This document shows, in pieces, positions 13,654-50,342 of a stretch of 64,000 nucleotides of DNA (its first letter is position 1; every line of letters begins with the position of its first letter). Location: assembly GCF_932294415.1 (NCBI RefSeq), contig NC_065537.1, forward strand, positions 50,574,302-50,638,301. The letters are read 5' to 3'. Made by a program: the position numbers and the translations under genes. Source of the stretch: Quercus robur. Lineage: Eukaryota > Streptophyta > Magnoliopsida > Fagales > Fagaceae. The notes beneath the pieces are model-generated. The model made no database searches. It saw only the letters and a list, made by a program, of their open reading frames with translations, and was not told the origin of the DNA.

Positions 13654-13655
13654 GT

Positions 13656-13673
13656 TGGCGCCGTCTGTGGGAA
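13656..13673 (+). other. Element 1 primer binding site
   Basis: TGGCGCCGTCTGTGGGAA starts two bases after the LTR. The first nine bases fit the 3' end of plant tRNA-Asp as I remember it; the rest fits less well. Element 2 has the identical 18 bases. Confidence 0.65.
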
Positions 13674-13740: not shown

Positions 13741-16700
13741 ATGGCGACCACTAACAACGTTCAGGAAGACGAGCCGCGACCGATTGCTCTCGAGAAACAA
13801 GTGCAGATTCTAACAGCGGCCGTTGAACGCCTCACTAAGCAAAACTAGGTTTTGGAAAAGCAACTACGTCGGAAGACAGGACATGATATTCTAGAAGAAG
13901 ACCTGGAAGATACCAGTGCTGAGCGACGAGACCGAGAAGGACCGGAGGGCAGTAACGCCCTGAGCAGACTGGAGCGGCAAAATGTAAGCCTCCCATCCCT
14001 CACGGATGCAACTCCACCCCTTGTTGTCGCAAAGATACAGGTGATAAAGGAACAGATGGAGGTAATGATGAACGCTCTCAAGGGACGAGTGTCCAACGAT
14101 CTTGACAATCTTGTTAACCATACTGATTCCCCGTTCACTGCCTCCATCAACTCCTTCCCCCTATTGCACAAGTTTCACATGCCGCAGATAGATAGCTACG
14201 ACGGGGTCAAGGACCCTCTAGATCACCTGGAGACCTTCAAGACCTTGATGCACCTTCAAGGAGTTGTAGATGAAATCATGTGTAAGGTCTTTCCTACGAT
14301 GCTGAAGGGTGCAGTAAGAATCTGGTTCAGCCGATTAACGCCCAACTCCATCAGCACTTTTAAGGAGTTAAGCGCTTAATTTACCACGTACTTCATTGGG
14401 GGACATAGGTATAAGAAGTCTACGGCTTGCTTGATGAGCATCAAACAGCGAGAGGACGAGACGTTAAGATCCTACATATCTCGCTTCAATAAGGAAGCGC
14501 TCTCGATCGATGAAGCCGACTATAAGATACTTGTAGCGGCCTTCACAAACGGGCTGCGGAAGGGTAAGTTTTTGTTCTCCCTATACAAGAATGACCCGAA
14601 GACCATGTCAGAAGTACTTTACAGGGCCACCAAATACATGAATGTTGGAGACGCGTTGTTGGCCCGGGAGGAAAACCCCAAGAAAAGGGAAAGGCAGGAA
14701 GACACATGACAAGACCAAGGGCGCAAGAAGGCAAGAACAGGAGATCGAAGTGATGAAAGGCGCCCCAAGCCCCAAGGGGGAAGGTTCACGAGCTTCACCC
14801 CGTTAACTACCCTGATAAATCAAGTTTTGATGCAAATCAAAGACGAAGAGGCCTTCACTTTCCCCGGAAAGCTGAAAGGCGCTCGAGGGACAAGTATTGT
14901 CGATTTCACTAAGACCACGGTCATGACACGGCCGATTGTTACGACTTGAAATAGCAGATTGAAGCCCTTATTAAACAAGGGAAGTTGCAGAAATTCGTCA
15001 GGAAGGAGAGAGTGAATCTACCCCCTCAAGAGCAGAACCTGGGATAATGAATGACCAAGACTCCCCATAAGGGACATGAGAATGATCGTAGAGGGAACGG
15101 CAACCACTAGGTCATCCAAAAAGGCCTGTAAAACTTACCTTAGGATGGTCCAGAATGTTCAGTTGACAGGCTCTGTACTGAAGATAGCACGGAGAGAAAG
15201 CCCCATAATCGGATTCTCGGAGGAAGATGCACGACGTCTTTACCACCCACACGACGACGCGCTGGTCGTCAGCATACAAGTAGGGGATTACAACATGCAC
15301 AGGGTGTTGGTCGACAATGGTAGCTTGGCAGATATCCTATATTATCCAGCGTTCCAGCAAATGGGGATCAGCAGAGAACGATTGATCCCGATGAACGCTC
15401 CACTCGTCGATTTTGGAGGCACGAGGGTGCTCCCCTTAGGCACAGTCACATTATTCGTAGTGGTAGGTGACTACCCAGAGCAGATTACCAAGGATGTGAC
15501 ATTCCTAGTGGTCGACTGCTCATCCGCCTACAATGCTATCCTCGGACGACCCACCCTCAATTCGTGGAAGGCTGTAACCTCAACCTACCACCTAATGATT
15601 AAGTTTCCTACCGATTACGGAATGGGAGAGCTAGGGGGAATTAAGTGGCTGCACGCGAATGCTACGTGGCCATGATGGAAATGGATGACCACCTCCAAGC
15701 CATGAGCATAGAAGAACACCGAATGACAATGGAGCCCGTAGAAAAACTTAAAGAGGTGTTTCTTGACGACTCGAACCTTGAACAGACAACCAAGTTTCGA
15801 ACCCTTACCAGTCCCGCAGTCCGCCAAGCACTCACGACTTTTCTCAGAAGCATTCGAGACGTATTTGCCTGGAGCCACGAGGACATGCCTGGGATAGATT
15901 CTTCAGTCATGGTACATAGGCTAAATGTGTCACCTTCCTTTCCGCCCATCCGACAGAAGAAGCGAATGTTCGCCCCGTAGCGAGACTGAGCCATAGCAAA
16001 AAAGGTCCGTAAACTACAAGAAGCGAGCTTCATCAGGGAGGTTTACTACCCCGACTGGCTGGCGAACGTAGTAATGGTCAAGAAAGCTAGCGGAAAGTGG
16101 AGGATGTGTGTGGACTTCACCGACCTTAACAAAGCCTACCCCAAGGACAACTACCCCCTCCCACGGGTCGACGTACTAGTAGACTCTACAGCCAGGCATC
16201 AGTTGTTAAGTTTTATGGACGCTTTCTCGGGTTACAACTAAATCTAAATGCATGAAGCCGATCAGGAGAAAACTTCATTTGTAACTAGTCAAGGCCTCTT
16301 CTGCTATAAAGTGATGCCCTTTGGCCTGAAGAATGCGGGCGCGACATACCAGAGGCTCATAAACAAAATGTTCGCGCAACAAATTGGGAGAAATGACCAA
16401 GTGTACGTGGATGACATGTTGGTGAAAAGTCGAAGGGAAGAAGATCACTTGGAAGACCTCAGAGAGACATTCGACACCCTTCGTGCTTACAATATGAAGC
16501 TCAACCCAGTAAAATGCGCCTTCGGAGTGACGGCGGGAAAATTCCTAGGGTTCATGGTGTCTCAAAGGGGCATTAAAGCTAACCTGGATAAGATTCGGGC
16601 CATAATGGAGATGGCACCCCTAAGAAATGTGAAGGAAGTGCAAAGCCTCAATGGAAAAATAGCGGCGTTGAATAGGTTCGTGTCGAGGGCAACGGACAAG

Positions 16701-18935
16701 TGTTTACCCTTCTTCCGCACGCTTAAGAAGTCTTTCGAGTGGACTGCCGAGTGTCAGCAGACATTTGAGGAGTTGAAAGCCTACCTCTCCGCCCCGCCAC
16801 TACTAAGCCCATCACAACCGGGTGAAGAGCTTTTCCTCTATCTAGCCGTCTCCCCTGCCGTTGTCAACGCAGCCTTGATCAGGGAGGAAGAAAGAGTGCA
16901 GAAACCTGTGTATTACGCCAACTGTGTGCTTTGCGGAGCCGAAGAAAGATACTTGCCCATGGAGAAACTCGCCTTTGCGTTAGTTACGACAGCTCGCAAA
17001 CTCAAGCCATACTTTCAAGCCCATACGGTAGTCGTCCTGACCGACAAGCCCCTACGGCAAGCAATGAGCAACCCTGACGCTACTGGACGGTTAGCACTTT
17101 GGGCCATAGAATTAAGCGAGTTAGACATCTAATACCGCCCGCGAACCGCCATCAAAGGGCAGGTCGTCGCAGACTTCATAGCAGAATTCACTTATGACAA
17201 GGACAAGGGGGCAGAAGAATCTCCTCAATGGAGTGTACATACAGATGGATCATCTAATAGGCAGGCTGTAGGGGCCGGCGTCGTACTATTGTCACCTGAA
17301 GGAGATACGGTTGAATGCATGGTCCGTCTCGACTTCCCCACCACTAATAATGAAGTGGAATACGAAGCACTAGTAGTGGGTCTCGACCTCGCCAAAGCAG
17401 CAGAAGCCACGAGCGTAGTCATTTACTGTGACTCTCAGGTCGTTACTAACCAAGTAAATGGGGACTACGAGTGCAAGGGCGAAAGGATGAAAAGATACCT
17501 GGATCAAGTAAAAAGAAGAGTAGACGACCTAAAGGCCAAAATCATCCAAATCCCTAAAGGAGAAAATGAGTAAGCCGACCGCCTTACCAAGGCCGCTTCA
17601 GCAGAACACATGATCACCCATGGTAATGTACTCTCTTTCGTTCAACTTTCTCCACTAATAGATTCCGACGACGTACAGGAGATAGGTTGTGAAAGCAACT
17701 GGACAACACCAATAGCTTCATACTTGAAGAATGGCGTTTTGCCAGACGAGAAAGAGGCTGCAAGAAAGTTGAAGGTCCAGGCAGCAAGGTTCGTCTTGAT
17801 AAAAGATGTCCTGTATAAAAGAGGCTTCTCCTATCCATATCTAAGGTGCTTAGGCAATGAAGAGGCGGACTACGTCATGAGAGAGGTACACGAAGGGATT
17901 TGCGGAAACCATTCGGGGTCAAGATCACTAGTACACAAGCTTGTGCAAGCAGGATACTATTGGCCTATCATGCAGAAGGACACCGAGGCTTATGTCAAGA
18001 CATGCGACAAATGCCAGAGGTTCAGCAATATTATTAGACAACCAACCAAAGAACTGACTCCGATGACGGCCCCATGGCCGTTTGCTCAGTGGGGGTTAGA
18101 CATTATGGAACCATTCCCTACAGCAGTACGACAGCTGAAGTTCCTAGTAGTAGGCATTGACTACTTTACAAAGTGGGTGGAAGCTGAAGCTTTAGCCACC
18201 ATTATAGAGAAGAACATACAGGGTTTCGTCTGGAGATGCATCATATGCATATTTGGCATTCCTAGGGTCTTAGTCTCGGATAATGGGAAGCAATTCGACA
18301 ACGACTCCTTCCGAGACTTTTGCTCGCAGTTAGGGATAAGGAACCACTACTTCTCCCTCGCCCACCCCCAAGCTAATGGACAGGTCGAAGTTACGAACCG
18401 ATCCTTGCTTAAGATTATCAAGACTCGGCTCGAGGGGGCAAAGGGCATATGGCTTGAAGAATTGCCGAGCATACTATGGGCATACAGAACGACGGCGAGA
18501 ACACCCACAGGAGAGACACCATTCCGACTAACGTACAGAAATGAGGTAGTCATCCCAGCCAAGGTCGGACTTACAAGCTACAGGGTACACAACCATGATG
18601 CAAGCAGGAACGACGAGGCCATACGTCTACAGCTCGATCTGGTAGACGAAGTCAGGGCGACAGCAGAACAAAGGCTCGTACGGTACCAGGATCGCATGGC
18701 GAAGCACTACAATTCCCGGGTCCGACATAGAGACTTCAAGGTTGGAGATCTCGTCCTAAGGAAAGTCATGGGCGTTACTAGAGACCCCACCCAAGGGAAA
18801 CTCGGCCCCAACTGGGAAGGACCTTTCCGAATCACGTCATGGCAGAGGAAGGACACTTACCACCTGGAGACGATAGACGGACAGAAGCTACCACACCCAT
18901 GGAATATCAAGCACTTGTAGAAGTACTACCAGTAA
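13741..18935 (+). pseudogene. Element 1 gag-pol, decayed
   Basis: Starts MATTNNVQEDEP at 13741. Gag capsid region about 14140-14600; aspartic protease around 15300 with the DNGS form common in this lineage; RT about 16020-16560 with YVDD at 16404-16415; first RNase H about 16830-17130; second, RVT_3-like RNase H about 17220-17600 (TDGSSNRQ, CDSQVV); integrase about 17870-18600 with H2C2 zinc finger (HEGICGNH...CDKCQ) and DDE residues in GLDIM, SDNGKQF and NGQVEVTN. No chromodomain seen. In-frame stops at 13846, 14377, 14707, 16239, 16245, 17130, 17571 and 18918, plus frame changes near 14900-15070 and 15650. Several stops correspond to Gln or Arg codons in the sister copy, suggesting C-to-T decay. 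Confidence 0.9.
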
Positions 18936-19185
18936 AAAGGATGACATGAAGAACAACACCCCTTTATTTCTAGTTTAATTTTAGCTATACTCCTCAGTTT
19001 CTCTATTTACTTTAAATTTTGCTACAATAACTTTTTCAAAGCCCAAAGTGCAGGTTTTTGTTTTCTTTTTAAAGAACTACTTTTTTCTACAAATGCATGG
19101 CAATAAGAGGAGTTTATTCAAAAATAGCTGAAGTTTTTATTCACAAATTCATAGTACACAAAAAGTGGACGACTTAAAGTCCATA

Positions 19186-19900
19186 GTATAAACAAGGCTA
19201 TAAAGCTGATGACCTCATCAAATGAATGAGATCATAAAAGGTGACAAAGTTCACTAAGTTTATAACAGGGACAAGGCTATAAAACCGATGATCCTACAAA
19301 AAAGTGACAAGTTCACTAAGTCTATAACAGGGACGAGGCTATAAAGCCGACGGTCCTACAAAAAGTGACAAGTTCACTAAGTCTATAACAGGGACAAGGC
19401 TATAAAGTTGACGGTCCTACAAAAAAGTGACAAGTTCACTAAGTCTATAACAGGGACGAGGCTATAAAGCCGACGGTCCTACAAAAAAGTGACAAGTTCA
19501 TTAAGTCTATAACATGGACGAGGCTATGAAGCCGACGGTCCTACAAAAAAGTGACGGGTTCGTGAAGTCCATAAATGGGCAAGGCTATAAAGCTGACGGA
19601 CCTACCAAAAAGGGACGGGTTCGTGAAGTCCATAAATGGACAGGGCTATAAAGTCGACAGCCTTACAAAAAAGTGACGGGTTCGTGAAGTCCATAAATGG
19701 GCAAGGCTATAAAGCTGACGGCCCTACTAAAAAGTGACGAGTTCGTGAAGTCCATAAATGGACAGGGCTATAAAGCCGACGGCCTTACAAAAATGATAGG
19801 ATGACTCCATAAATGGACGAGGGTATAAAGCCGACAGAGGGAACAAACTCGTTAAGTCCATAACACGGCCAAAGCAGTAAAGCTGACGGCTCCACAAATA
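19186..19900. repeat. Element 1 minisatellite, ~61-62 bp unit
   Basis: About 11-12 tandem copies of a unit beginning ACGAGGCTATAAAGCCGACG and ending CACTAAGTCTATAACAGGG. Starts of successive units at 19271, 19333, 19394 and 19456 give the period. Later copies switch to a variant containing GACGGGTTCGTGAAGTCCAT. It lies between the end of pol and the antisense gene, the same place as the different minisatellite of element 2. Confidence 0.92.
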
Positions 19901-19943
19901 AACAGAAATAAAAACGGGTCATTATCCATTGCCAACAGACTTG

Positions 19944-20522
19944 TAGGTGGCGTGTTTATCAGGCCTATAAAAGTCAGGAAACCGATGAGTTTTTCATAAA
20001 TAAGATACAACGAGTAAGCAGATAAACCCGTAAAGTTGACGGATACTACAGGCCGACGTAATTATTCTCGGCCCCTAACATACAACATACCAACAAGTCA
20101 AAAGCAGGAAGAAACAGAAATAACATACCATACACAAAATAAGTTGTCTACAAACAAAGGCCCAAAAGCAAAGGGGCACTTAAACATTGTTCTCAAAATA
20201 AATGGAATATACATAAAACAAAATCATGCGTTAGGTGGCGTGTTCATCAGGCCTATAAAAGTCAAGAAACCGACGAGTTTTTCATAAATAAGATACAACG
20301 ACTAAGCAAATAAACCCGTAAAGCTGACGGATACTACATGCCGACGTAATTATTCTCAGCCCCCAACATACAACATACCAACAAGTCAAAAGCAGGAAGA
20401 AACAGAAATAACATACCATACACAAAATAATTTGTTTACAAACAAAGGCCCAAAAGCAAAGGGGCACTTAAACATTGTTCTCAAAATAAATGGAATATAC
20501 ATAAAACAAAATCATGTGTTAG
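19944..20522. repeat. ~287-bp direct duplication in element 1
   Basis: A block beginning GTAGGTGGCGTGTTTATCAG at 19944 is repeated at about 20230, with the second copy running to the antisense gene stop at about 20512. Identity is high by eye. Confidence 0.85.
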
Positions 20523-22803
20523 GGGCGTCAACAAGGTTTCCATCGTCTTTTTGGGGTTGAGGGTCGTCAACGTCTACGGCTACCACTAGAATCTTGGAAA
20601 TGGGAGCAGGAGGAGGATTGACAGCAGGTTGGGCTAGAACGACGCCGCCGTCATCCTTGGGAGGAAGCTGCAACTTAGGGGTACCGTCATCATCGTCAGT
20701 GACAAAATTCCCAACAAGCGTCATTGGCTCAGGCGCATCCATTGTAATCTCCGACAAGTCCAGCTCTGGGAAAGTTGACCCGACCTGTTTAAGGCAATCG
20801 TCAAACCTAGTGCCGTAGTAGTCAGCACAAGAGTCAATGAACAATTGCGACGTCTTAAACTTCTGGACAATGTCAGTCCCAGCCGTCTCCACCTTTTCGC
20901 GCAAGGCTGTCACCTCCTCTTGAAGTTTCTGCTTCTGACGGTCTGCCTCCTCCAATTTCCCCTTCAACTCCTTCACCTCCTGATTGAACGTGCGGATGGC
21001 CTCCTTGTATTGCCCTTGTTCGTTCATCAAAGTGGCATTGTGCTTCCTAACACGGTCGACGACCCCCTCCTTTACAACATAACGATCCTAAAGGGCCTTG
21101 ACGCAAATCAAGGCCTGAAAAAAGCACAAGCGTCAGTCAAATGAATCAGAAAGAAATAAAACCAACTTAACCTGAGAGAGCGAACATACCCTAGTAAGGT
21201 CAAAAAGAGCTGACGCCCCCAAATCCTCTGTCCCTAACAAATCACAAGGCCCTATATCCGTCGGCTTTACAAAGGACCCCACTTCCTCGACGACATAGTC
21301 TTTGTGGGTCAGGAGGCAACATGGGCCCTCGATGACGGGACCAGAGGAAGTCATTACCCCTTTGCCCGCGCCATGGCTTGGCTTAAGGGGTGACTTCCTC
21401 TTCGGAGAGGTGTCACCGGGAATGACGGCAGTCCTTTTTGACGGACGGTCATCATCTCCGTCAGGTTTCCTTTTTGAAACCTTACTGTCGGCCTTGGGGG
21501 CTGACGAGGTTCCCTCCCCTGTCCCTTTTGCCAATTTCACCTCCTCTTTCTTACGGGCTACAGCCGCCCTTATTCTTTGCTTAGCAACATCCATTTCTAC
21601 AAAAATGATAGACGTGCGTTAGGAAAAGCAGACGGTAAAATTAGACTGACGAGTTATGTGAAAGGTTTACTTACGGCGACGGGAGTATTCGCCTAATTTC
21701 TGAGCTTCTGGCGTCGGCTCAGGACCCCCGCAATACAAATGGAGAGTGTCAAGGGTGATTAAGTCCTTGCACTTTCTCTGTTCTAGGGGAATTTCGAGGA
21801 CCTGTTGGATGAACTCCTCTTGCTCGTTAGATATATGGGGACGCGCACTAGTTGAAATCAAGAAAAATGGACGATATTAGAAGCGCTACAATAAAACAAA
21901 GAAAAGAGCAGCTGGCGGGTTCAACTTGAATCTCTAACAAAAGCCCACATGTTGTCGAAGTAACCACGAGGCATCGTCACCCATTCTTCCTGACGGTACA
22001 CCCAATCTGTCCCTTCAACAAAAAAAATACCTATTTTTCCAGGTTCTATTGGAATCTGGCGTATCAAACACTAATTTTAAGTCCTTTTCCCTGACGGTAA
22101 AGTGATACGTCCCTTTGGAAGAAGCAATATGGTGGGGTTTGTAGTAGTAAAAGAACTCGTCCAATGTAAGCTGATGGTTTCCCCCACTCAGACATCCCCA
22201 TAATATTTCAGCACCTATAAAAGTCCTCCAAGCATTTGGAGCAATCTGGCTGACGGATAGACCCAAAAAGTCGGCCAGTTGACGGTGCAATGCCGTCAGC
22301 GGCAATCTAAGCCCCGCGCCAAACATGGCGTCATACATGCCGACGTCAGCTGTCCTCCTCGAGTAGCATCTTTCACTCTCCCTAGGGAGACGGATCGGGA
22401 TATGTTCTGGGATTTGGTACTGGGTATGCAACTCCTTAAAAACTTTGTCACTCATCAAAGGTAAAAACTTGTTGACGGCCCATTCCTTGGGGAGAATGAA
22501 GGGACGGTTATCTCCAGGATCTACTGAGGTCCCTTCACAAGACTCCTCATCACCGTCACCATCCTCCTTGTCACCATCATCATCACCGTCACTCCCACTT
22601 CCCACTTTTCCTACTTTGTCAACTCTTTCTATCTTCTCACTCCCCTCAGCATAACTCTCATCCTCGCCGTCGGGAGATTGGGCCGACGTCTTTCTCTCTG
22701 ACGAAGGTGAGGAGTCCTCGGACTCATCACCCGAACCAAAGGTCTCATCGTAGCCCGTTCCTTCGCGGACTTACGACTCCTCACTCGACGCGACATTTGA
22801 CAT
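20512..22803 (-). pseudogene. Element 1 antisense gene: Transposase_28-like domain plus coiled coil
   Basis: Reads opposite to gag-pol, ATG at 22803. The acidic Ser/Glu/Asp-rich N-terminus is followed (about 22490-22040) by a domain with 'AGLRLPLTALHRQLADFLGLSVSQIAPNAWRTFIG', the pattern of the Pfam family called putative gypsy type transposon (Transposase_28). Further exons at about 21861-21670 (ends before GTAAGT), 21594-21190 (Lys-rich, nuclear-signal-like; ends before GTATGT) and 21120-20512. The last has a heptad-rich coiled coil at about 21000-20880 and a Pro/Asp-rich tail. Exon order and sequence match the antisense gene of element 2. Lesions: TAA at codon 11 (22771), a poly-T frameshift near 22020, and a TAG near 21090. 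Function unknown; such antisense reading frames have been described in Tat elements. Confidence 0.75.
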
Positions 22804-23255
22804 CTGACTACCTGCAAGTGACGGATCCAATCTAAGTACCTAAGTTGACGTCCTCACTAGGGAATTATTCAGCTATAAGTAAATAACGTGAAAAAGAAGG
22901 AAATAGAAACTTACTGGTAAGTTAACTTTCTAAAGAAAGGCCTTAAGACTGACGACGGATAAAGTGATGGAAGTAAAGGATGAATTGATGAAATCAAAAG
23001 CGACGGGCTTTCTCTCTCGAAAATCAGCAAAGATGAAATGGAGAGAATGAGGAGGATGCGCTATATATATAGAGAGAAAAATGCGTGGGAGACGAAGCGA
23101 CGCCTTCGTAAAAAACGGGGCCAACGGAAGCGCGACACATGTCTAGGGCATTAAATGTATCCGGCTCGAGGAATTCTCCAAATAATCTTCCCGCTTCTCT
23201 GGACCCAAAAAAGTAATTAACCAAACTCCACAACCCGTTAGTCTAAAACAACGAG

Positions 23256-23275
23256 ATTATGGAGTAGGGGGCAAC
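23256..23275 (+). other. Element 1 polypurine tract
   Basis: GGAGTAGGGGGCAAC immediately precedes the 3' LTR. Element 2 has the corresponding GGTGAAGGGGGCAAC on its coding strand. Confidence 0.75.
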
Positions 23276-23879
23276 TGATGTGGAAGAAAATAGAAGGTAC
23301 TCACAGTAAGAACAAGCCGACGGTTTATGGCAACGACGTGTGCTGACGACCTCTTTTGCACCCGTCAACTTTCATTAATACTCATTGACGAAGAGGAAGT
23401 TAAGAAACACTTTACAAGGCACTCAAAGGCTGACGCCTCCATGAAGCTGACGGCATTAAGGCTGAAGGGGCAGTGTAAGCTGACGACCCTGATAAAGGGT
23501 TGCTTGCCACCCACGTATCATGTATATAAGGAAATAACTTGCTCTCCACGCTTGGTAATACCCAAAGGGATTCCTATAAGAAAGGATCCCATAAAATACG
23601 CCCAAAGAGACTCCTAAAAGGAAAAGACTTCTAATCCAATAAGGAGAAGTCAACACTCTACTACTATAAAAACCCCAATACCATCACCAACCAAAGTACG
23701 CATAATTTACCCCTCTCTAACACTCTAGAGTTATGAGAAGTTCTAACTTAACCTTCGGAGGGTATTAGGCCGACACCACACCAGTGCTCTCTGTTAGGTC
23801 CTCTCTTTTTGTGTTGTGCAGGTGTCATTGTGAGCACGTGTTGACCGTGTAGCTCACTGTTGATTTTCTAGCATCATCA
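23276..23879 (+). repeat. Element 1 3' LTR
   Basis: 604 bp, same ends as the 5' LTR (TGATG...CATCA). Roughly 35 differences from the 5' copy by eye, mostly transitions. Confidence 0.92.
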
Positions 23880-23942
23880 GTTTATGTAGGAGAGGATGGT
23901 GAGTTGGAAGAGCATGGTACTGACAGAAATGGGTATTAAAGA

Positions 23943-24915
23943 TGTTAGGACATATGTGTTTCTCATGTTATAGAACATATGTCATGATTTTATGTAATTG
24001 GCTTATCCTTTGACAAAACGCACTTTACTTGTATTTGGGTAGACTTAGGATGTATTAAACTACTTCAAGAAACCACGTTTCAAGATCTAGTGTTGAAGCC
24101 TTTAAGTCTATTCAAGAAATCAAGCAAGGAGTGCAAAATCATTAAAGCTCGACAGCTGGTTGATACCTTCTCAACACCTCCTATCTGTCAAGGTTTACGA
24201 ATTTCAAATTTCAACTTTGATTTTCTTGGGATCCGTGAATCTGTCTATGGGCCTTCTTTTCTCTTAACCCTAGACATATAAAAGGATTGTTTTAAGAGCC
24301 GTCAAACGGTACACAAGTTGCACAAGTATTGAGCAAACTTTGTTCAAACAAATTGTAACCGGAGACAAAGTTCTTGACCTAGTTCATCTCTTTCTTGGAG
24401 AAGTTGCTGTGTATTTGCACCATAGGGTTTTGTGACCAAGCATCTTCCTGATCTTCATCGTATGGATGAACTGAAGAACTTTGCAGCCAACAATCTTTTC
24501 AGATTGGTGATTAAAGTCGCGTACTGGGATCCACGCAATTGGTTAGTCATGTACTTGGGAGCCATGCATCAGAAAGGGGAACTGTCACTACAGAACAAGT
24601 CTGATTGGGTATTGGGGTAAGGGTTCAACTGTAGGTTGGTAAGGTACTTGGGATTCCTTGCTTGTAACCACTTGTTGTGATAATAGTGGAGTTTCAGGAG
24701 TGGTGACCTGAAAATCACCTAGTGGGGTTTTTGCCGTCAGGTTTTTCCCCATTCGTAAACAAATCACTGTGTCTTTTAATTTCTGCTGCAATTTTAGTTT
24801 ATTGGTGATTTGTTTGTACTACCACGCGTTTGCATGATAAATTGATTAATTAATAACTTGACTAATTAATTAATTAATTTCTATCACAATGGGTCATTCA
24901 GTTTGTGGCCTATCA
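23943..24915 (+). mobile_element. Solo LTR, 973 bp, perfect AAAGA target duplication
   Basis: Starts TGTTAGGACATATG and ends GTGGCCTATCA, and is flanked by AAAGA at 23938-23942 and 24916-24920. It contains a TATA-like ACATATAAAAGG near 24275. The downstream half, ending 'TTTTTCCCCATTCGTAAAC', resembles Ty1/copia LTRs of woody plants. No internal domain remains, so it arose by recombination between two LTRs. Copia affiliation is inference from style of sequence. Confidence 0.85.
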
Positions 24916-24920
24916 AAAGA

Positions 24921-25718
24921 GTTTGCATGACATTATCCTAAGTTTTGTCTAGGTTTTGGTCCGAGGCTGAGTATTTAACTTTTCCAAGACCAAAGAGAAG
25001 TAAGACAAGAATCCAAATACTACCGCGTATCCCAAATGTAATTTTGAGAATATCTAAAATTGGTCACCAGTGACCAAACAACTTTTAATATATACTTTCT
25101 CAAAAAAAAAAAAAAAACCTTTTAATATATATATATATATATATAAAAGGAGTTATTTAATATCAAAATATACATCACCTTTTTCACAATATACATCTCC
25201 TCAAATGTTGTAATTATGTAGTTTGAGAAGGCATGATGGCGCAATTCCCACCAAGAAGGAGCTTCTGTTCACACACATATACGCGCTTAAATTAAAATAG
25301 AATAAAATTTCTATTTTGTAAAAAACAAATATATATATATATATATATATACATAAATAAAAAATAAATAAAAAAGACAAGAATTCGAATATTTCCGATT
25401 TGAGTCGTCGTTTCCTAGGAATCGTTGTCGGATTAAATAGTACAGAATATATATAGATTCTCTTAGGAAAATATTCCATTATACTTATTTTACCGCCGCT
25501 ATATCATACATCAATTGATGGCTTGATATACACTCTTTAAAAGGCGAAAATGAAATCTCTATATTTAAAAATAAAAGTGAAAGTGAAATTATTATTACCC
25601 ATAATTAAAGGATGAAAAATTAAAAGGACAAAAAATGTAGTATTTGTGTTTTTTACAATGTGTATTGGGTTGAAATGACAAAAAAAGTAGAATTATTATG
25701 TCCTTAATTTTTTATTTA
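24921..25718. other. AT-rich spacer with (TA)n tracts, no gene seen
   Basis: Host-like DNA between the solo LTR and element 2. TA microsatellites at about 25122-25146 and 25329-25351, poly(A) near 25103-25117. No reading frame with recognisable content. Confidence 0.5.
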
Positions 25719-26224
25719 TGATGATGCCGTAAAATCACCAATGAGCTACACGATCTATGCTCGCTTAAATTAACAACCTGCAAGAAGAAAGAAGTGATCT
25801 CGCAGAGGGCACCGGTGTGGTGTCGGCCAAATACCCTCCGAAGGTCAAGTTAGAATTATTCTCAACTCTAGAGTGCTAGAGAAAGGGAAATTATGCGTAC
25901 CTTGATTTGTGAGGGTATTGGGGCTTTTATAGTAGTAGGTTGGCTTCTCCTCCTTGATGTAGAAGTCTTTTCCTTATAAGAATCCTCTTGAGTAATCACA
26001 AACGTGATGGACAAGACATTTCCTTGTAGAGAGGATTTTCCATTAACGCGCGTATCTTCCGGAATGCTCTTTGCACTAGGTTTCTGATTTCCTTTGAGAC
26101 TCTACGTGGGTAACAAGTATCTGGAATCATTCTAGGCCCTGGGCTCACCTATTGCCGGCCCATGGGCTTGGATCCGTTAGGCCCAATGTGGTCAAGGTTC
26201 GTCATGCTAATTTTTGCCCCTTCA
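25719..26224 (-). repeat. Element 2 3' LTR
   Basis: On the coding strand it begins TGAAGGGGCAAAAATTAGCA, directly after the polypurine tract GGTGAAGGGGGCAAC (26225-26239), and ends GGCATCATCA. The alternative start TGACGAACC at 26204 fits the matching length with the other LTR better but leaves the tract 20 bp away. Confidence 0.82.
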
Positions 26225-26757
26225 GTTGCCCCCTTCACCTTATAGGTCTGTCATGACTTAGATGGATGGACCCTTAGGGCGACAGTTTGATGTTATTTGG
26301 GGTTGACGGTCCAAGAATATTTAGGACGCCGGCTTAAGATCCCTGAAGTTGACGGTTCTCTAGGAGGACACGAATTGCGACTATTTGATGACAGGTTGTC
26401 AAGTATTTATGAGCATGCCACGTGTCGCTTTTCGATTGGATTTTGTATCGGATCGAAGCGTCGCTTCGTCTTCCATGCACTTTAGGTATGTATATAACAC
26501 TCTTCTCGATCCTCATTTCTAAACTTTACAGCTAAAACACATTGTCAGAACGCCACCATCAACCTTGTCAGAGCACTCCTGTCATACGTCCATACCCGTC
26601 GACTACACAACCGTCGACCTTCAGTTACTTCAGAGAACGGTGAGTATCACTATTTTTACTTACAAGTCTTGCGTTTGTAATTATATTTAGCTAGAGCTAC
26701 ACACCCATCAATACTCTTAGATCCGTCAGTCTTAGGTTTTATCGTCAATTGTAGGCA

Positions 26758-28888
26758 ATGTCTAGTGCGTCAAGTAATCAGTCAGTGGTTCGTGACGGGA
26801 CAGAATACGAGGAAGTATACCCGTCCGGTCATAGAGACCCAGACAGTCCCGGCGAAGAGAGGAGTCCGTCTGCCTCTTCCTCGTCCTCAACAAATGAGGA
26901 TACAGAGATGGTTGAGCCAGAAGATGCTTCTGATGACGGCAAGGATCAAGCATTGGGATCCGTCATCGATGTTGATGGACTTAGAGAGTTCATCATGCTA
27001 CCAGAGTGGACAGTGCATAAATTCACTTCCGTCATTAAGGAGAAACACTTCAGCACATTTAGGGCTAACTTCCAAATTCCGAACTACATTCCAATCTGTC
27101 TACCCTATGTATCGGAGAAATGTTATTACGACGGGGTAGAAGGTGTTGGAGTGTACGAGCAGATGCTGAAGGCAGGACTTCGGTTTCTGCTAAGTACCCT
27201 ACATAGAGAACTTTTAAAATATTTGGGTCTGTCCGTCACCCAGATATCCCCAAACACCTGGAGGGTCTTCATAGCAATGGAGATTCTCTATGGTGCTATG
27301 ACAGACGACGTTAGGAGGTTGACGGTGCGTGAATTCCTTCAGTGCTACCGTCCAGATGAAATAGATAGATCAAGAGGAATGTATAGTTTTGCCAGTAGGA
27401 GCCCCTTGTTGAAGGTCATTTTTGAAACTCCTGACTCAAATAGAGATTGGAAGAGTCGTTACTTCTTCCTAGAGGGTAACGAATGGATGAGCCGTCCAAG
27501 GAAGACAGAGTATATGCCCGTCGACACAACTTAGGGAGTGTTACATTCATCTCGTATGCACCCGTCCTAATTTGTAATTCTTTTCATAGCCGTCAGTTAT
27601 AATTCTTCTTCTAACCGTCCATTTTCTCTGCAAGTAGACAACACCCACAAGTTAGTATTGAGGAGTTTAGCTTTCTCGAGAGGATTTTTCAAAAGACCAA
27701 GTCGGAAGAAAGGACTTGGGCGAAGTTGGTAAATCCGAACACTATCCATTGGTATTATGACGGTCCTAAACCTACCCCTGAAGCCGTCAGATACGACGAA
27801 AGAATTCACAGACGTAAGTCCGTCAACCTTTACTTCGAATAAATGGCTCCAACTATATGTAAATAACTTCATCCGTCCTGTTTTACAGAGATGGACGATG
27901 CTAAGAGGAGGGCGCTGATAAAATCTCAGGCCATCAAGAAAAAGGAGTCCGGCGAGGTGGTTCCTAAGGGGACGGCTCCGTCGACAAAGAGGAAACCGTT
28001 GTCCAAATCTCACCGTCCACATAAGCAGCCAAAGGTCTCTCTGGAACCCGTCGTAGGGTTGATGGCTGAGGGTGTGAAGACCGTCACCCTAGTAAAGCAC
28101 AAGTTCGGCAAGGGCCTAATGAAGGCTCCATCCACAAACCAAGAGAAACCTCCTCCTCTCCTCCGTGACGACTCCAAATTTGCCTTGGAGAAGCTTTCAT
28201 CTATTATCTCATTGGAGGACTACAAGGATCTGGGCAATCACTCGACGGAGGCAATGGGGGAGATGGGTCTCTTTGCTGTTGCTCAGGTAATCTTTTTCCG
28301 TACTTAAGTCCGTCTACTTAGTTTTTTGTTTAACACTTTTTAACTTTCTTGTTCCAGTCCTTGGTCATGATGAAGGGCTTAATGGATCGGTGTCTTAACC
28401 GTGAAGTGGCTGTAGAACGTGTGCGAGCAAAGGCAGAGCAAACGGAGGATGAGCTTGGTCAACTTCACAAGTGGAAGTCCACTATGGAGAAGAAGTTTGA
28501 CCTTTTAGAGCAGGCAAGGAAAGAACTTGAGCAGAAGACGGATGAGGCAGGGAAGGCCCTGAAGATCAAAGAAAAGGAAATCCAAGACTTGAAGGAAACG
28601 CTCCGTCAGGCTAAGGAGGTAGCGCTCCGAGAATACCGTGATTCCGACGCCTTATTAGGCGAGCTGGGGGGCTCGTTCCTTCAAGGTTTTGATGACGCGC
28701 TCCGTCAAGTTCAAAGAGCCTACCCTGAACTAGACGTGTCAATGATAAATGTCAACAACCAAGATCAAACGTCTGCTTTGCCAGTCGCTTCAGAGAACAC
28801 AGACGACCTCTTTGGTGAGGATGTAGTTCAGGGTGACGGAGAATCAGTTCCAGCAAAAAATGTCCAAAATGCCGATCCAAAAATGTAG
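26758..28888 (+). CDS. Element 2 antisense gene: Transposase_28-like domain plus coiled coil
   Basis: Opposite to gag-pol of element 2. First exon from ATG 26758: acidic N-terminus (MSSASSNQSVVRDGTEY), then a domain at about residues 85-200 with 'GLRFLLSTLHRELLKYLGLSVTQISPNTWRVFIA', aligned with the element 1 protein. A second coding block at about 27625-27840 contains WYYDGPKPTPEA, matching LYCGGPEPTPEA of element 1. A third at about 27891-28286 is Lys-rich; it is followed by GTAATC and, after an intron ending in TTGTTCCAG, by a last exon at 28358-28888. That exon has a long coiled coil (about residues 20-100 of the exon) and a 'SFLQGFDDALRQVQRAYPELDVS' tail, again matching element 1. No stop was noted in the main exons, but joins between blocks one, two and three are uncertain. 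Function unknown. Confidence 0.7.
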
Positions 28889-29344
28889 ATTATTATTATT
28901 ATTATTATTTTATTTGAGAACGATCCGTCCTTTATTTTGTGTATTAAACAATTACCCTCTAAGGGTTTTATCCGTCATTATTGCTTTATCTTAAAATTTT
29001 ATGCTTGCTATATATCAATCTTTATTATTTTTTGAACGATGCATAAATATCTGTCCTCTCCAAGTTGTTCATTATAGAACTGGCCATTTTTATGGACTTG
29101 TGTAGTTCTTGTTTCAGGACGATCCGTCCTACTTGAATGGTTTAGGTAATCTTATCCCGTCCTTTATTGTGGACTTGGAAATTTTCACCTAACGGGGCAA
29201 TCCGAGTAGTTGACGGGCTGGTGTCCGTCCAATTCGAATTTATTGCATTTTAAACACCATTTGTCTGGGACTACCCGTCAGTTTGGTGGATTTTGTTTTT
29301 ACCGTCCATTTTTTCAAACTTGTAAATATTTCCAACCCACGTGT

Positions 29345-29915
29345 GATCCGTCCACTTTTGTGGTCTTGGCAGGTATTTCTACCTACTGTGTGATCCATCC
29401 ACTTTGTGGATTAACTATTTTCATATTATCAGTGATCCGTCCACTTTGTGGTCTTTGTAAATATTTTCACCACATGGGTGATCCGTCCACTTTGTGGACT
29501 ACTATAAGTATTTTCACCATATGGGTGATCCGTCCACTTTATGGACTTTGTAGATGTTTTCACCCTATGGGTGATCCGTCCACTTTGTGGACTTCTATAA
29601 ATATTTTCACCATATTGATGATCCGTCCACTTTGTGGACTAAACATTTTCACCATATGGGTGATCCGTCCACTTTGTGGAATTTTTAAATAATTCACCCT
29701 ATGGGTGATCCGTCCACTTTGTGGTCTTTTTAAATTACTCACCCTTTGGGTGATCCGTCCACTTTGTGGACATTGTAAATTATTTTCGCCCTTTGGGTGA
29801 TCCGTCCACTTTGTGGGTTTGTCCATGTCGGACTTCAAAATTCTCATTCTCTTTGGATGATCAGTCCACTCTGTGGACTTGTTATATATCCGTCTACTTT
29901 GTGGACATTGTGTAG
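29345..29915. repeat. Element 2 minisatellite, ~46-48 bp unit
   Basis: About twelve copies of a unit with core GTGATCCGTCCACTTTGTGG followed by a T/A-rich spacer and CACCATATGGG. Unit starts near 29432, 29478, 29526, 29571, 29619, 29660, 29707, 29751 and 29798. Degenerate copies flank the array (29386, 29853, 29890). The unit is unrelated to that of element 1 except for a shared CCGTC core. Confidence 0.92.
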
Positions 29916-30126
29916 CCTATCTATTCATAATAAAAATCCATGTGGAAAATCAAAGCTGTATCTGAATATTCTTCTTTAAAGAAAATGCGTTTGTAGAAAA
30001 AAGTACCTGCCCCATTGGGCTTAAAAAGGTACAAAAAGATTGTAGCAAGAATAGTTAAAGAAAAACTAGTAAATTGTAGCTAAAGATTAAATAAACTGGG
30101 AAATTGGGGATTTGTTCATATTCTCT

Positions 30127-33100
30127 TTACTGGTAGTATTTCCGTAGATGCTCCGTGTTCCGAGGGTGCTGCAGCTTTTGTCCGTCCATTGTCTCGAGGT
30201 GGTAGGTCCCCTTCCTTTGCCATGATGCGATCCTGTAGGGTCCTTCCTAGTTGGGGCCGAGTTTTCCTTGTGAAGGATCTCTAGCGGCACCCATTACTTT
30301 CCGTAGTACAAGATGACCGACCTAGAAGTCCCTATGCCTCACTTTGGTGTTGTAGTATTTTGCCATGAGATTCTGATAACGCGCCAACCTTTACTCTGTT
30401 GCCGCTCTAACTTTGTCTACTAGGTCGAGCTGGAGGCGTATGGCCTCTTTGTTCTTATCTTCGTCGTAGCTCTCCACCCGGTAGCTCGTGAGCCCCACTT
30501 CTACGGGAATGACAACTTTGGTTCCATATGCAAGTCGAAATGGTGTTTCTCCAGTGGGTGTTCTTGCCGTGGTCCGGTATGCCCATAGGACGCTTGGTAG
30601 TTCGTCCGGCCAGATACCCTTTACCCCCTCAAGCTGGGTCTTGATTATCTTGAGCAAAGACCAATTAGTGACTTTGGCTTGCCCGTTTGCCTGTAGGTGT
30701 GCAGGTGACGAGTAGTGATTCTTGATCCCTAGCTCCGAGCAGAAGTCTCTGAATGCGCTGTTGTCGAATTGCTTACCGTTGTCAGAGACCAGTACTCTGG
30801 GTATCCCGTACTTGCATATGATATTCCTCCAGACAAAACTTCAGATGTTCTTCTCCGTGATGGAGGCTAAGGCTTCTGCCTCTACCCACTTAGTGAAGTA
30901 GTCTATGCCAACTATCAGGAATTTTAGCTGTCGAATCGCCGTCGGGAATGGGCCCATGATATCAAGTCCCCATTGTGCAAACGGCCAGGGTGCCGTCATA
31001 GGTGTCAGTTCTTCGAACGACTGCCTGATGAAATTGTTGAATCTCTGGCATTTGTCGCAGGACTGGACATAAGCTTGCGCATCCTTCATCATTGTAGAAC
31101 AATAGTATCCTGCTCGGATCAACTTGTGTACTAGTGATCGCGCACCCGAGTGGTTTCCGCAAATACCCTCGTGTACTTCTCTTATCACGTAATCTGCTTC
31201 CTCTTGGCCTAAACACCTCAGGTACGGTCGAGAGAAATCTCTTTTATATAAGACGTCCTTTATCAGTACGAACCGTGATGCTTGGACCTTTAACTTTCTT
31301 GCGGCGCCCTTCTCGTCTGGTAACACCCCAGTTTTTAGATAGGATATCAATGGCATAGTCCAGTTGCATTCAAAGTTTACTACCTGCATATTTGTTCCGT
31401 CATCGATAAGTGAGGAGATTTGAATGAATGATAATACCTGTTCGGGAACCAGCATAAATTCGGCTGACGCAGCTTTTGCTAGATGGTCGGCGTATTTGTT
31501 TTCTTCCCTTGGGATTTGAATGAATTTGGCTTTGAGGTCGCTGATTCGGTATTTTACTTCTTCTAAATACCTCTTCATTCTATCGTTCTTGCACTCGTAA
31601 CCGCCATTGATCTAACTCATTACCACCTGTGAATCGCAGTGTACGACTATGTTTTCTGCTCCCGCGGCCTTTGCAAGATCTAGCCCTGCCACCAAGGCTT
31701 CATACTCTGCCTCGTTGTTGGTTGTGGGGAAATCCAGTCGGATCATACATTGGATCTTGTCCCCCTGTGGAGTTTGGATCACTATGCCGGCTCCCCCGGC
31801 TTGTCTATTTGAAGATTCTTCTGTATAGATATTCCATTGTTCTTTCTCTTCCTCCACCTGGCCTTCCCCGAGAGTGAACTCGTCGATGAAGTCAGCTACT
31901 ACCTGTCCTTTTATGGCTGTCCGCGGGCGGTATTGGATGTCAAACTCGCTCAGCTCTACTACCCACAAAGCCATTCTTCCTGCTGCTTCTGGGCTACTCA
32001 TGGCTTTTCTCAATGGCTTGTCCATTAAGATAACGATTGTATGCGCTTCGAAGTATGGCTTAAGTCTTCGCGCGGTGATTACCAACGCGAAAGCCAACTT
32101 CTCCATCTAAGGGTACCTCTCTTCTGCTCCTCAGAGTGCTCGGTTGGTAAAGTAGACTGGTTTCTAGGATCCATCCTTCTCTCTCACCAAAGCTGCGCTT
32201 ACTGCAGCTTGTTAAACGACTAAATATAAGTAGAGTTCTTCGCCCAGCATGGATGGACTGAGCAACGGTGGAGATGAGAGATATGCCTTCAAGTCGTTGA
32301 ATGCCGTCTGGCATTCATCCGTCCACTCAAATGATTTCCTTAGAATGCGGAAGAATGGTAAACACCTATTCGTCGCCCTTGAGACGAACCTGTTTAGGGC
32401 TGCGATCTTCCCGTTCAAACTTTGGACCTTCTTAACCGTCCTTGGTGGTTCCAACTCCATTATGGCCCGCACCTTCTCTGGATTGACCTCTATTCCTCTT
32501 TGGGACACCATGAAACCCAAGAACTTCCCAGCTGTCACTCTGAATGCGCACTTGTTTGGATTCAGCTTCATGTTGAATGATCGAAGCGTATCAAATGTCT
32601 CCCTGAGGTCGTCTAAGTGATCAACTTCATGCAGGCTTTTTACCAACATGTCATCAACATAAACCTGTATGTTCCTGCCGATCTAATATGCAAACATCTT
32701 GTTCATTAGCCTTTGGTATGTTGCCCCAGCATTTTTGAGTTCGAAAGGCATCACCTTGTAGTAGAATAATCCCTGGCTTGTGACGAAGGAGGTCTTCTCT
32801 TGATCAGATTCGTCCATCCTGATCTGGTTGTAGCCGGAGAAAGCGTCCATAAAGCTTGGGAGCTGGTGTCTTGCAGTTGAATCCACCAAGGTATCTATCC
32901 GTGGGAGCGGGTAGCTGTCTTTAGGGCAAACCTTGTTGAGGTCCGTGAAATCTATGCACATCCTTCAGTTTCCGTTGGCCTTTTTAACCATAACAACGTT
33001 TGCCAACCAGTCGGGGTAGTATACTTCCCGGACGAAACCTGCCTCTAGTAATTTTCGAACCTCCTCGGCTATGGCCTTGTCCCGCTCCTAGGCGAAGACT

Positions 33101-35346
33101 CGTTTCTTTTGCCGAATTGGAGGGAATGAGGGCGACACATTTAACTTATGGACCATGACTGAAGGGTCGATTCCTGGCATGTCTTCATAACTCCAGGTGA
33201 ACACGTCTTGGTTATCTCTGAGGAAAGTCGTGATCGTTTGGGGCACTGGCCAACTGGCTAGTGTGCCAATTTTAGTCATCCGTTCAGGCCGCATGTCATC
33301 AAGTCTCACCTCTTCTAGCTTTTCAATTGGCTCTGCTAATGCTCGCTGCTTTCCGATACACATTTTTTGTTGTTGATCCTCTATTTCTAACATGGCCATA
33401 TAGCATTCCCGCGTTGCTATTTGATTTCCCCACAGTTCTCCCACCCCATACTCCGTCGGGAATTTAATCATTAGGTGGTATGTTGAAGTTACCGCCTTCC
33501 AGGAATTGAGAGTGGGTCACCTGAGGATGGCATTGTAGGCGGACGAGTAGTTGACCACGAGAAAAGTTACCTCCTTAGTGATCTGCTGAGGATAGTCACC
33601 TGCCGTCACAGCTAGTGTTATTGCGCCCAAAGGGAACACCTTCGTTCTCCAAAATCCCACGAGTGGGGCATTCGTTGGGGTTAACCGTTCCTTGTCAATT
33701 CTCATTTGCTGGAATGCTGGATAGTACAAGATGTCTACTGAGTTACTGTTGTCGACGAGGACCCGATGCATGTTATAATCCCCAATTTGCAAGCTGACCA
33801 CAAGTGCGTCATCATGAGGATGGTGAAGTCTCTGAGCGTCATCCTCTGAAAATCCGATAACAGGGTTATCTATTCGCGCCATCTTGGGTATGGATCCTGT
33901 AAGTTGGACGCTATGGACCATCCTGAGGTAGGTTTTGTGGGCTTTTTTGGAAGATCTGGCTGTGGTTGTGCCCCTTACGATCATTCTTATGTCCCCTATA
34001 GGTGGTCTAGGGCGCTCGTTCTCCCGTCGTGGGGCCTGTTCCTGCGGCGGATCGGTTCTTTCCCTGCTGACGAACCTCAGTAGCTTCCCTTGTCTGATAA
34101 GGGCCTTAATCTGCTGTTTTAGGTCGTAGCAGTTGGCTGTGTCGTGCCCGTGGTCTCGGTAAAAGCGACAATACTTGTCCCTTAGCCTTTTGTTGGGATC
34201 TCCCTTTAATTTACCAGGGAACGTCAGTGCTCCTTCATCTTTGATTTGCATCAAGACTTTATCGACCGGGGTGGTTAATGGGGGTGAAATTGGTGAACCT
34301 TCCAATGGGGGGTCTAGGGCGCTTTTCATCTCGTTGATCTCCGGTTCTAGCAACCTTTCGCCCCCTGTCTTGTCGCGTGTCCTCCTGTCTCTCCCTCTTC
34401 TTAGGCTTCTCTTCGCGGGCTAGCAATGCATCTTCTGCATTCATGTATTTGGTAGCTCTATAGAGCACGTCCGTCATGGTCTTCGGGTCATTCTTGTATA
34501 AAGAAAACAAAAACTTACCCTTCCGTAGCCCGCTAGAAAATGCAGCTACGAGTATCTTATCATCAGCTTCGTCAATTGAAAGGGCTTCCTTGTTGAAACG
34601 AGTTATGTAGGCCCGCAGCGTCTCGTTTTCTCGCTGCTTGATGCTCATTAAGCACGCAGTGGACCTTTTGTACCGATGTCCGCCTATGAAGTGCGAGGTG
34701 AACTGGGCGCTCAACTCCTTGAAAGTATTGATGGAGCTTGGTGTCAATCTATTAAACCAAACCCTCGCAGGGCCCTTCAATGTCATCAAGAATGCCCTAC
34801 ACATGATCTCGTCTGGTACCCTTGAAGGTGCATTAGGATCTTGAAAGTCTTTAGATGATTGAGGGGGTCCTTGACCCCGTCGTAGCTTTCGATCTAGGGC
34901 ATGCGAAATTTCGGTGGCAGGGGGAATGAGTTGACGGACGTAGTGAATGGTGAGTCAGTTCTGTTTACTAAGTCATCAAGATCAGTGGATACTTGTCCCT
35001 TTAGGGCATTCATCATGACCTCTATCTGCTCCTTCATCGCCTGCATCTCTGCGATAATAGACGGAGGGGCAAAATTCATGAGAGATGGAAGGCTTATGTT
35101 TTGCTGCTCTGGTCTGCTTGGGGCGTTGCTGCCCTCTGGCTTCTCTTGGTCCCTTCGTTCGGCACTGTTACCTTCTTGGTTTTCCTCCTGAACGTTAGGT
35201 CCTGCATCCCTTTGGCGTAGCTGCTCCTCCAGATCATGGTTCTGCTTTGTGAGTCGTTCTACTGCTGCCATGAGAGTCTGGACCTGTCTCTCTAATGCAG
35301 TAGATCTTGGCGGCTCGTCTTCTTGAACGTTGTTGGTGGTAGCCAT
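30127..35346 (-). pseudogene. Element 2 gag-pol, decayed
   Basis: Starts MATTNNVQEDEPP at 35346. Gag capsid about 34950-34400; a CCHC-like zinc-knuckle region was not confirmed; protease near 33740 (VLVDNSNS, one residue off the usual DNGS); RT about 32961-32400 with YVDD at 32650-32661; first RNase H about 32200-31900; second RNase H about 31840-31480 (NNEAEYEALVAGLD, CDSQVV); integrase with H2C2 (HEGICGNH...CDKCQ, about 31170-31060) and catalytic core to about 30600; stop at 30127. Premature stops include sites near 32682, 32220, 31620, 30840 and a Trp-to-stop near 30255. The catalytic Glu of integrase is Lys (30673-30675). Not autonomous. Confidence 0.9.
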
Positions 35347-50281: not shown

Positions 50282-50321
50282 TCTCTGTGAAGGGGTTGCT
50301 TCTTCCTTCTTCTTTGCCCAG

Positions 50322-50339: not shown

Positions 50340-50342
50340 AAA

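Follow-up and report, generated by a model that had tools for sequence, protein, structure and literature searches.

The Retand lineage of plant long terminal repeat (LTR) retrotransposons is known for an open reading frame (ORF) that lies between pol and the 3' LTR, runs antisense to gag-pol and encodes a Transposase_28 (TRP28) domain. In the available text of a 2025 survey of 617 assemblies, 97% of the Retand clusters with recent activity are reported to carry antisense TRP28 ORFs, the function of TRP28 is called unknown, with DNA binding predicted, and the family-specific tandem repeats of these elements are likewise said to have no known function (PMC11963269). A 2019 survey, as far as its available text goes, puts the share of Retand elements with Transposase_28 at 23% (PMC6317226), and the accessible parts of a 2020 review describe GENE23 of Grande as nuclear and as having its own promoter, and urge that antisense transcripts and spliced ones be examined (PMC7264820). 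Here we analyse a stretch of 64,000 nucleotides from Quercus robur (contig NC_065537.1, positions 50,574,302 to 50,638,301 of the forward strand; hereafter the window), which holds two diverged elements of this type, element 1 and element 2. As the available text of these sources describes for the Retand TRP28 ORFs, including those of RIRE2, Grande (GENE23) and the Silene Retand element, both elements present a TRP28-type ORF in antisense between pol and the 3' LTR, a long post-pol region and tandem arrays (PMC11963269, PMC7264820).

A second system of reference is found among DNA transposons. In the accessible descriptions of VANC21 from Arabidopsis, a 9-base motif occurs densely and in one orientation in tandem repeats of the protein's own transposon, the related VANC6 uses other motifs, and VANC binding leads to a local loss of CG methylation and to release of the element (PMC5735166, PMC10398659). 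Local CG dips have been described in sunflower for Retand and for several other lineages, so that, from the available text, they are not specific to Retand (PMC12844716). The elements analysed here resemble the VANC/VANDAL system, as portrayed in the same partial sources, in presenting a short dense motif, tandem arrays, family-specific variants and a fast-evolving accessory protein and, in families F1-F3 (defined below) but not in all families, a single orientation of the motif (PMC5735166, PMC10398659). VANDAL elements, however, are Mutator-like (MULE) DNA transposons, whereas the carrier here is an LTR retrotransposon, and the comparison concerns the way of working, not descent.

A third parallel is provided by human T-cell leukaemia virus (HTLV), whose HBZ protein is spliced and regulatory and contains a basic leucine zipper (bZIP) coiled coil; HTLV is not known to have arrays of a self-motif. 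HBZ and APH, which are named in the available text of PMC11963269, are likewise nuclear products of antisense retroelement genes, but the antisense promoter of HTLV lies in the 3' LTR (PMC7264820, available text).

Antisense TRP28 ORFs are a published hallmark of Retand (PMC11963269, available text), which means that an antisense gene of this kind was known before. The present locus differs in that the ORFs form one four-exon gene, that selection on this gene was measured, and that a CGTC word recurs in its arrays, exons and introns. Introns are not mentioned in the available text of PMC11963269, where the antisense ORFs are listed singly, and the available portions of PMC11963269, PMC7264820 and PMC6317226 mention neither conserved introns nor a shared motif. 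Titles and abstracts returned no introns in antisense TRP28 genes, in searches that were mostly not aimed at introns; with earlier publications on Grande, Retand and additional ORFs standing outside this comparison, the novelty of the introns is uncertain. No papers were found for CCGTC and retrotransposon as whole words; the shared CGTC word, which an earlier note made from the letters of this DNA does not mention, is new here. We propose, with a probability of roughly 0.42, that these elements have a self-recognition system convergent with VANC, in which the protein of the spliced antisense gene would bind the CGTC arrays of its own family and free that family from silencing. The role of the Retand antisense genes and that of their variable tandem repeats are both given as unknown in the available text of PMC7264820 and PMC11963269, and a shared word offers one testable answer to both. 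If true, self-recognition here would be independent of VANC in origin and would explain the antisense gene together with the puzzling Retand tandem repeats; plant LTR retrotransposons would have evolved a sequence-specific anti-silencing counter or activator of their own, which would help to explain bursts in some families while their relatives stay silent.

A four-exon gene antisense to gag-pol

The antisense gene lies on the reverse strand in element 1 (22803-20512), in which gag-pol is on the forward strand, and on the forward strand in element 2 (26758-28888), in which gag-pol is on the reverse strand. The earlier note had claimed that the two genes share their block order, their antisense orientation and their place in the element, and all three are confirmed. 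Exon 1 (21926-22803 in element 1 and 26758-27553 in element 2) encodes an acidic head followed by a Transposase_28-like domain with its core at 22219-22329 and 27154-27267, respectively. Exon 2 (21675-21851; 27634-27813) contains the block GPEPTPEA (21703-21726) or GPKPTPEA (27762-27785), exon 3 (21190-21596; 27889-28286) is Lys-rich, and exon 4 (20512-21114; 28358-28888) encodes a coiled coil with the motif FPELDLS or YPELDVS and, in the element 1 copy, carries a stop codon near its start. The two proteins are 42, 35, 27 and 28% identical in exons 1 to 4 (pairwise E values 5e-64 to 4e-8). The block reported in the earlier note as (G/P)GP(E/K)PTPEA holds for its GP(E/K)PTPEA part; element 1 has G and element 2 has D at the preceding residue, not G/P. 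In the match to Transposase_28 (PF04195), both window copies score below the 26.2-bit Pfam cut-off (20.1 bits, E 7.7e-4, and 18.8 bits, E 1.9e-3) and four relatives from the same genome above it (L002, L003, L004 and L047; 39.9-47.1 bits).

The genome searched comprises 785.7 Mb in 42 contigs, 12 of which, all large, contain the matches listed. Family F1 is that of element 1 (30 copies, element 1 counted), F2 that of element 2 (9 copies, element 2 counted), F3 is a third family represented by locus L047, and F4 and F5 are further families. Donors and acceptors occupy homologous places in the two window elements, with intron phases 1, 1 and 0 in both. For intron 1 (21852-21925; 27554-27633) the donor GT is present in 29 of 30 F1 copies and 8 of 9 F2 copies and the acceptor AG in 23 of 30 and 7 of 9; both window copies have lost this AG, and another AG lies a few bases further on. 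The corresponding values for intron 2 (21597-21674; 27814-27888) are 27/30 and 9/9 for GT and 29/30 and 8/9 for AG, and those for intron 3 (21115-21189; 28287-28357) are 30/30 and 9/9 for GT and 29/30 and 9/9 for AG. The median interior dinucleotide of the F1 introns is 67% conserved across the 30 copies, and 12% of dinucleotides reach 90%. In F2 the intron median is 78% against splice sites kept in 7-9 of 9 copies, a weaker contrast that makes F2 alone weaker evidence for the splice model. The predicted splicing is thus supported by conserved GT and AG at homologous sites in the family of element 1.

The same four exons, three introns and phases were identified in F3 at L047, which is 27-29% identical in the exon 1 domain. 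All exons of the L047 antisense gene are open and sum to 643 codons including the stop, and its predicted introns measure 88, 107 and 78 bases. Both window genes are broken: in element 1, exon 1 carries a stop as well as a frameshift and exon 4 a stop, and in element 2 there is a stop in exon 1; by the criteria applied here, none of the 39 copies analysed (30 of F1 and 9 of F2, window copies included) is open in all exons. A 288-bp tandem duplication at 19944-20528 of the window overlaps the end of exon 4 of element 1.

The earlier note also argued that introns lying antisense to the genomic RNA would outlast retrotransposition, and the genomic copies fit this expectation. In F3, 79 genomic sites match the junction between exon 2 and intron 2 with up to three mismatches, 25 of them exactly, and joined exons 2 and 3 have no genomic match within three mismatches, a result that covers this junction and neither proves nor disproves transcription. 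Retention of the introns in genomic copies is what one would predict for introns that the genomic RNA contains in reverse orientation, which provides a way for a retroelement to keep a multi-exon gene. F3 looks younger, judged from the tested 41-base junction, across which 25 of 79 sites are identical. This young-looking Retand family has at least 79 copies, among which L047 (4659-5501) is a junction-bearing gene locus with open exons.

Purifying selection on the antisense protein

The median ratio of non-synonymous to synonymous substitution rates (dN/dS) is 0.19 in F1 (435 pairs among 30 copies, exon 4 limited to its first 330 bases) and 0.19 in F2 (36 pairs among 9 copies), values that come from non-independent pairs and that understate the constraint because decay after insertion raises dN/dS. 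The F1 ratios for exons 1 to 4 are 0.17, 0.17, 0.24 and 0.20, and divergence at codon positions 1, 2 and 3 amounts to 0.141, 0.122 and 0.308 in F1 and to 0.109, 0.094 and 0.251 in F2. Wrong forward frames yielded 1.18 and 1.19 in F1 and 1.12 and 1.23 in F2, and introns read as codons 0.60-0.68 and 0.59-0.83, respectively. The reverse frames, analysed in F1 only, gave 1.09, 1.27 and 0.29; the lowest value, still above 0.19, belongs to the frame that would be expected to bring degenerate positions together.

The selection on the protein that had been suggested from the divergence of the two window copies was thus recovered in both families, at 0.19 against 1.1-1.2 in the wrong forward frames. 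Chance open frames are ruled out as an explanation of the blocks by the same contrast, and by the 0.6-0.8 obtained from introns. Four pieces of pol are 68-79% identical between elements 1 and 2 versus 27-42% per exon for the antisense protein, indicating that the antisense gene is under constraint yet evolves far faster than pol. The sequences show a real four-exon accessory gene of Tat/Retand elements, maintained by purifying selection during the time of their activity. The available text of PMC7264820 puts forward that the transcript rather than the protein matters, with antisense RNA forming double-stranded RNA that limits the element. A dN/dS of 0.19 and the keeping of frame and splice sites are hard to square with that proposal, as they point to selection at the protein level, and we regard it as very improbable.

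Enrichment of a CGTC word in the post-pol region

Word counts gave the first signal of a shared motif, with CCGTC far over expectation on the antisense-gene strand in both elements. Counts were compared by region with 200 dinucleotide shuffles, and in exons also with 200 synonymous-codon shuffles; the exon and intron bounds used for the by-region counts differ by at most about 20 bases from the final gene model. In the post-pol region of element 1 (18921-23275, reverse strand), CGTC occurs 58 times against 10.3 expected and ranks first among 256 tetramers, and its complement GACG occurs 26 times against 12.3 (rank 9). In that of element 2 (26203-30390, forward strand), CGTC also ranks first (50 against 11.6), GACG sixth (24 against 10.2), and CCGTC occurs 43 times against 3.1. 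The excess of CCGTC extends over exon 1 (7 against 0.5), exon 3 (4 against 0.4) and the upstream stretch (3 against 0.6) in element 1, and over exon 1 (8 against 0.6), intron 1 (3 against 0.2) and the downstream stretch (7 against 0.3) in element 2.

The same tetramer ranks first in six of eight post-pol stretches, the bounds of those outside the window being approximate. The other two are L003, where CGTC ranks third and GACG first, and L001, where they rank 26 and 4 in a 3.2-kb piece that is less than the whole post-pol region. Three other stretches of the window gave CGTC ranks of 133, 123 and 144, and gag-pol gave 26 in element 1 and 6 in element 2. CGTC was also at rank 1 in each of four loci retrieved later to test the pattern, but all four resemble F5 and do not amount to four new families; two further loci, also with rank 1, had been picked by the motif and are circular. 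A genome-wide search for clusters of three TCCGTC returned 3981 matches, which overlap within arrays and are not independent clusters, versus 186 for the reversed pattern, an imperfect control because CpG becomes GpC. Among the matches listed, two of three distinct TCCGTC clusters proved to be post-pol regions with antisense exons 3-4 and an integrase. The motif is present in every gene-bearing family sampled and is weak in F4.

Within exons, CCGTC exceeds the synonymous-codon expectation in F1 (349 against 79.9, 30 copies) and F2 (121 against 21.3, 9 copies), with no shuffle in 200 reaching either count, and its starts are spread over the three codon phases (34/120/195 in F1 and 23/58/40 in F2). 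The excess is seen in single copies of exon 1, with 6 against 0.9 in element 1, 8 against 1.0 in element 2 and 6 against 1.7 in L047 (0/200 in each case), and GACGG shows no clear excess in these three exons. In the pooled exons GACGG is raised about twofold (190 against 90.7 in F1, 100 against 51.5 in F2), and both exon 4 of F1 and exon 2 of F2 contain more GACGG than CCGTC. The density of CCGTC is 8.6 and 13.2 per kb in introns 1 and 2 of F1 and 14-23 per kb in the F2 introns, which have no GACGG. Among homologous exon sites, 11 in element 1 and 12 in element 2, only two are in common, and the aligned L047 exon sites (2 and 3) share none with the window elements, so that most sites have been gained or lost independently.

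The excess could in principle be a by-product of the base composition, of codon usage or of DNA rich in CpG, the more so as the copies are related and pooled counts overstate significance. Yet single copies exceed both dinucleotide and synonymous-codon shuffles, and gag-pol of the same elements has CCGTC counts of 6 against 5.5 (reached by 86/200 shuffles) in element 1 and 11 against 5.0 (6/200) in element 2. Codon usage is ruled out by the shuffles for the F1 and F2 exons and for exon 1 of L047. CpG outside the motif, compared between post-pol and gag-pol, is lower in three of five pairs and higher in two (L047 and L004); the motif-masked ratio is not consistently raised and lends no support to a CpG-rich region as the cause. 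A by-product of this kind is hardly credible.

Tandem arrays, orientation and flanks of the motif

In each family a tandem array lies on the pol side of the antisense gene, and its units carry the CGTC word. Tandem Repeats Finder delimits the array of element 1 at 19236-19793 (9.1 copies of a 61-bp unit, CCGTC on the reverse strand) and that of element 2 at 29343-29816 (10.4 copies of a 47-bp unit, CCGTC on the forward strand). CCGTC occurs ten times in both, against 0.5 and 0.3 expected, respectively, and GACGG in neither. The units measure 61 bp in F1 (GACCGTCGG), 47 bp in F2 (GATCCGTCCA), 66-79 bp in F3 (ACATCCGTCAAGG and TCGTCAG), 48 bp in F4 (ACATCCGTCATG) and 45-49 bp in F5, where they contain ATCGTC and GACGAT; in the array consensus of the F5-like locus L058, ATCGCC replaces ATCGTC and GACGAT is kept. 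Comparison of the units with 200 shuffles gave 22/200 for F1 and F2, 13 and 20/200 for F2 and F3, and 192 and 9/200 for F1 and F3, and the units of these three families are not clearly more alike than shuffles, yet all three contain CCGTC on the same strand. The F3 and F4 units are homologous, and the F1 unit scores above all 200 shuffles against one F5 unit. A shuffled unit would contain CCGTC on the right strand with a chance of 0.019 in F1, 0.0165 in F2 and about 0.06 in F3.

In the units the motif lies next to or within inverted repeats, such as GTCCAC-TTT-GTGGAC (F2) and ATCGTC...GACGAT (F5), which could possibly represent dyad DNA sites or RNA hairpins, the evidence for hairpins being suggestive only. 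The motif might act in RNA: the antisense protein, Gag or a host protein would bind GACG(G) of the genomic RNA or CCGUC of its antisense counterpart for export, packaging or splicing, as retroviral Rev does with its response element. Such a role is consistent with the strong orientation of CCGTC in F1-F3 and with the F2 introns, where the word is dense and its complement absent. On the genomic-RNA strand, moreover, four of seven array units, two of them F2-type variants, fold so that at most 8 of 300 shuffles are as stable (z from -2.2 to -3.6, uncorrected for 14 tests), compared with one of seven on the other strand. The double-stranded DNA sites of VANC21, however, are in fixed orientation as well (PMC5735166, available text). 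With the F5 motif moreover on both strands, we consider a role in RNA unlikely, though worth keeping in view.

The flanks of the motif vary by family: F2 prefers TCCGTCC and F5 TCGTC, and F1 and F3 are strong in CGTCA, the complement of TGACG. Plant TGA-type bZIP factors have TGACG as their half-site, CCGTCC is a listed plant promoter element, and host-factor sites are common in retroelements. The motif could hence be read by a DNA-binding factor of the host instead of the element's own protein, as the CGTCA of F1 and F3 and the CGTC enrichment of the element 1 LTRs would suggest. But a host factor would not readily account for flanks that change from family to family, exons, introns and arrays distant from the LTR promoter are odd places for an enhancer, and the LTRs of element 2 contain no CGTC at all. 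Recognition by a host factor appears to us distinctly unlikely.

A putative self-recognition system

The pattern formed by the word, the arrays, the orientation in F1-F3 and the fast-evolving accessory protein resembles that of VANC. From this likeness, added to the gene, the selection on it and the motif sites, we infer that the antisense protein may read the motif and counter silencing or activate transcription. Under this self-recognition model, a protein with a Transposase_28 domain, a basic exon and a coiled coil would be made from its own antisense promoter, enter the nucleus and bind the CGTC arrays of its own element family, where it would open chromatin or counter silencing and so allow gag-pol RNA to be made. 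Protein and site would in that case be changing together, which would be reflected in the rapid divergence of the protein, of the flanks and of the array units. That the protein is made, is nuclear, binds the CGTC arrays of its own family and either counters silencing or activates has, in our estimate, about an even chance.

Several results weigh against self-recognition. The motif is not confined to the post-pol region: CGTC is enriched in both LTRs of element 1 (5 against 1.2 and 7 against 1.3, 0/200 shuffles), element 2 gag-pol presents a mild excess (29 against 18.2, 1/200), and in the pol ORF of L047 (4492-6999 on the gene strand) the pol-coding strand has an excess beyond codon choice (18 against 7.1, 0/200), in contrast to the pol pieces of elements 1 and 2. 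Within pol, CGTC ranks first in L047 and third in L004, and GACGG is in mild excess in some of the pol pieces from the window elements (e.g. 3 against 1.2, 7/200). In the places where the motif would be expected it is at times weak, as in the L007 post-pol region (CGTC 13 against 4.4), or missing, as in F1 intron 3, where no CCGTC was found, and in exons 2-4 of L047, which show no CCGTC excess over synonymous-codon shuffles. Orientation is weak in F4 (CGTC 13, GACG 10) and lost in F5, where both strands carry the motif, and the third TCCGTC cluster (L055, G000:C1:670523-670585) matched neither the antisense exons nor pol. Post-pol CpG beyond the motif itself is not consistently better preserved than that of gag-pol, and so leaves no clear trace of regional hypomethylation. 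The VANC sites are non-coding and those described here lie in exons too; binding and demethylation have been demonstrated for VANC and are putative here. AlphaFold2 models of the exon 1 domain from the two window sequences had a mean predicted local distance difference test (pLDDT) score of 36.9 and a profile search of the PDB found no relative at E <= 1, so that structure gives no support for a DNA-binding fold; a collection of viral contigs also contained no relative. Finally, families were sampled through the antisense gene, so that the sample consists of gene-bearing elements.

This last point bears on a further alternative, in which the antisense protein serves another step, such as nuclear import or integration, and the motif is unrelated to it. 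Regulatory or pre-integration roles are suggested in the available text of PMC7264820 and PMC11963269, and a common region alone does not tie the gene to the motif. The motif was nevertheless found, if weakly in F4, wherever the gene was sampled, the protein evolves far faster than pol, and both flanks and array units vary by family. An unrelated role for the protein therefore seems quite improbable.

Anatomy of the elements and of the window

Element 1 is bounded by LTRs at 13049-13656 (5') and 23276-23882 (3'), which are 94.7% identical, and element 2, on the reverse strand, by LTRs at 35431-35912 (5') and 25719-26202 (3'), which are 95.2% identical. The gag-pol remnant of element 1 (13849-18920, forward strand) encodes reverse transcriptase, RNase H, a second RNase H and integrase, identified from ORFs and from Pfam matches to RVT_1, RT_RNaseH, RVT_3, Integrase_H2C2 and rve; two pieces upstream gave no Pfam match. 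That of element 2 (30391-34419, reverse strand) is spread over several frames and matches RVT_1, RVT_3 and Integrase_H2C2, with rve and RT_RNaseH each scoring just under the Pfam cut-off and one upstream piece giving no Pfam match. In the pol of both elements a second RNase H domain, RVT_3/RNase_H in type, comes after the gypsy RT_RNaseH, an arrangement that is a hallmark of Tat elements. The post-pol regions, 4355 bp long in element 1 and 4188 bp in element 2, include the tandem arrays in both.

Both antisense genes recur in the same order about 171 kb away (G000:C4:50765659-50774629 against 20470-28930 of the window; 94% and 96% identity), so that a local segmental duplication probably copied elements 1 and 2 jointly. 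A third long pair of direct repeats (37791-51182; 99% identity, 12.55 kb apart) looks like a younger LTR element and contains almost no CCGTC. On the reverse strand at 8872-9673, open frames resemble a plant ABC transporter of the pleiotropic drug resistance (PDR) type, a putative label.

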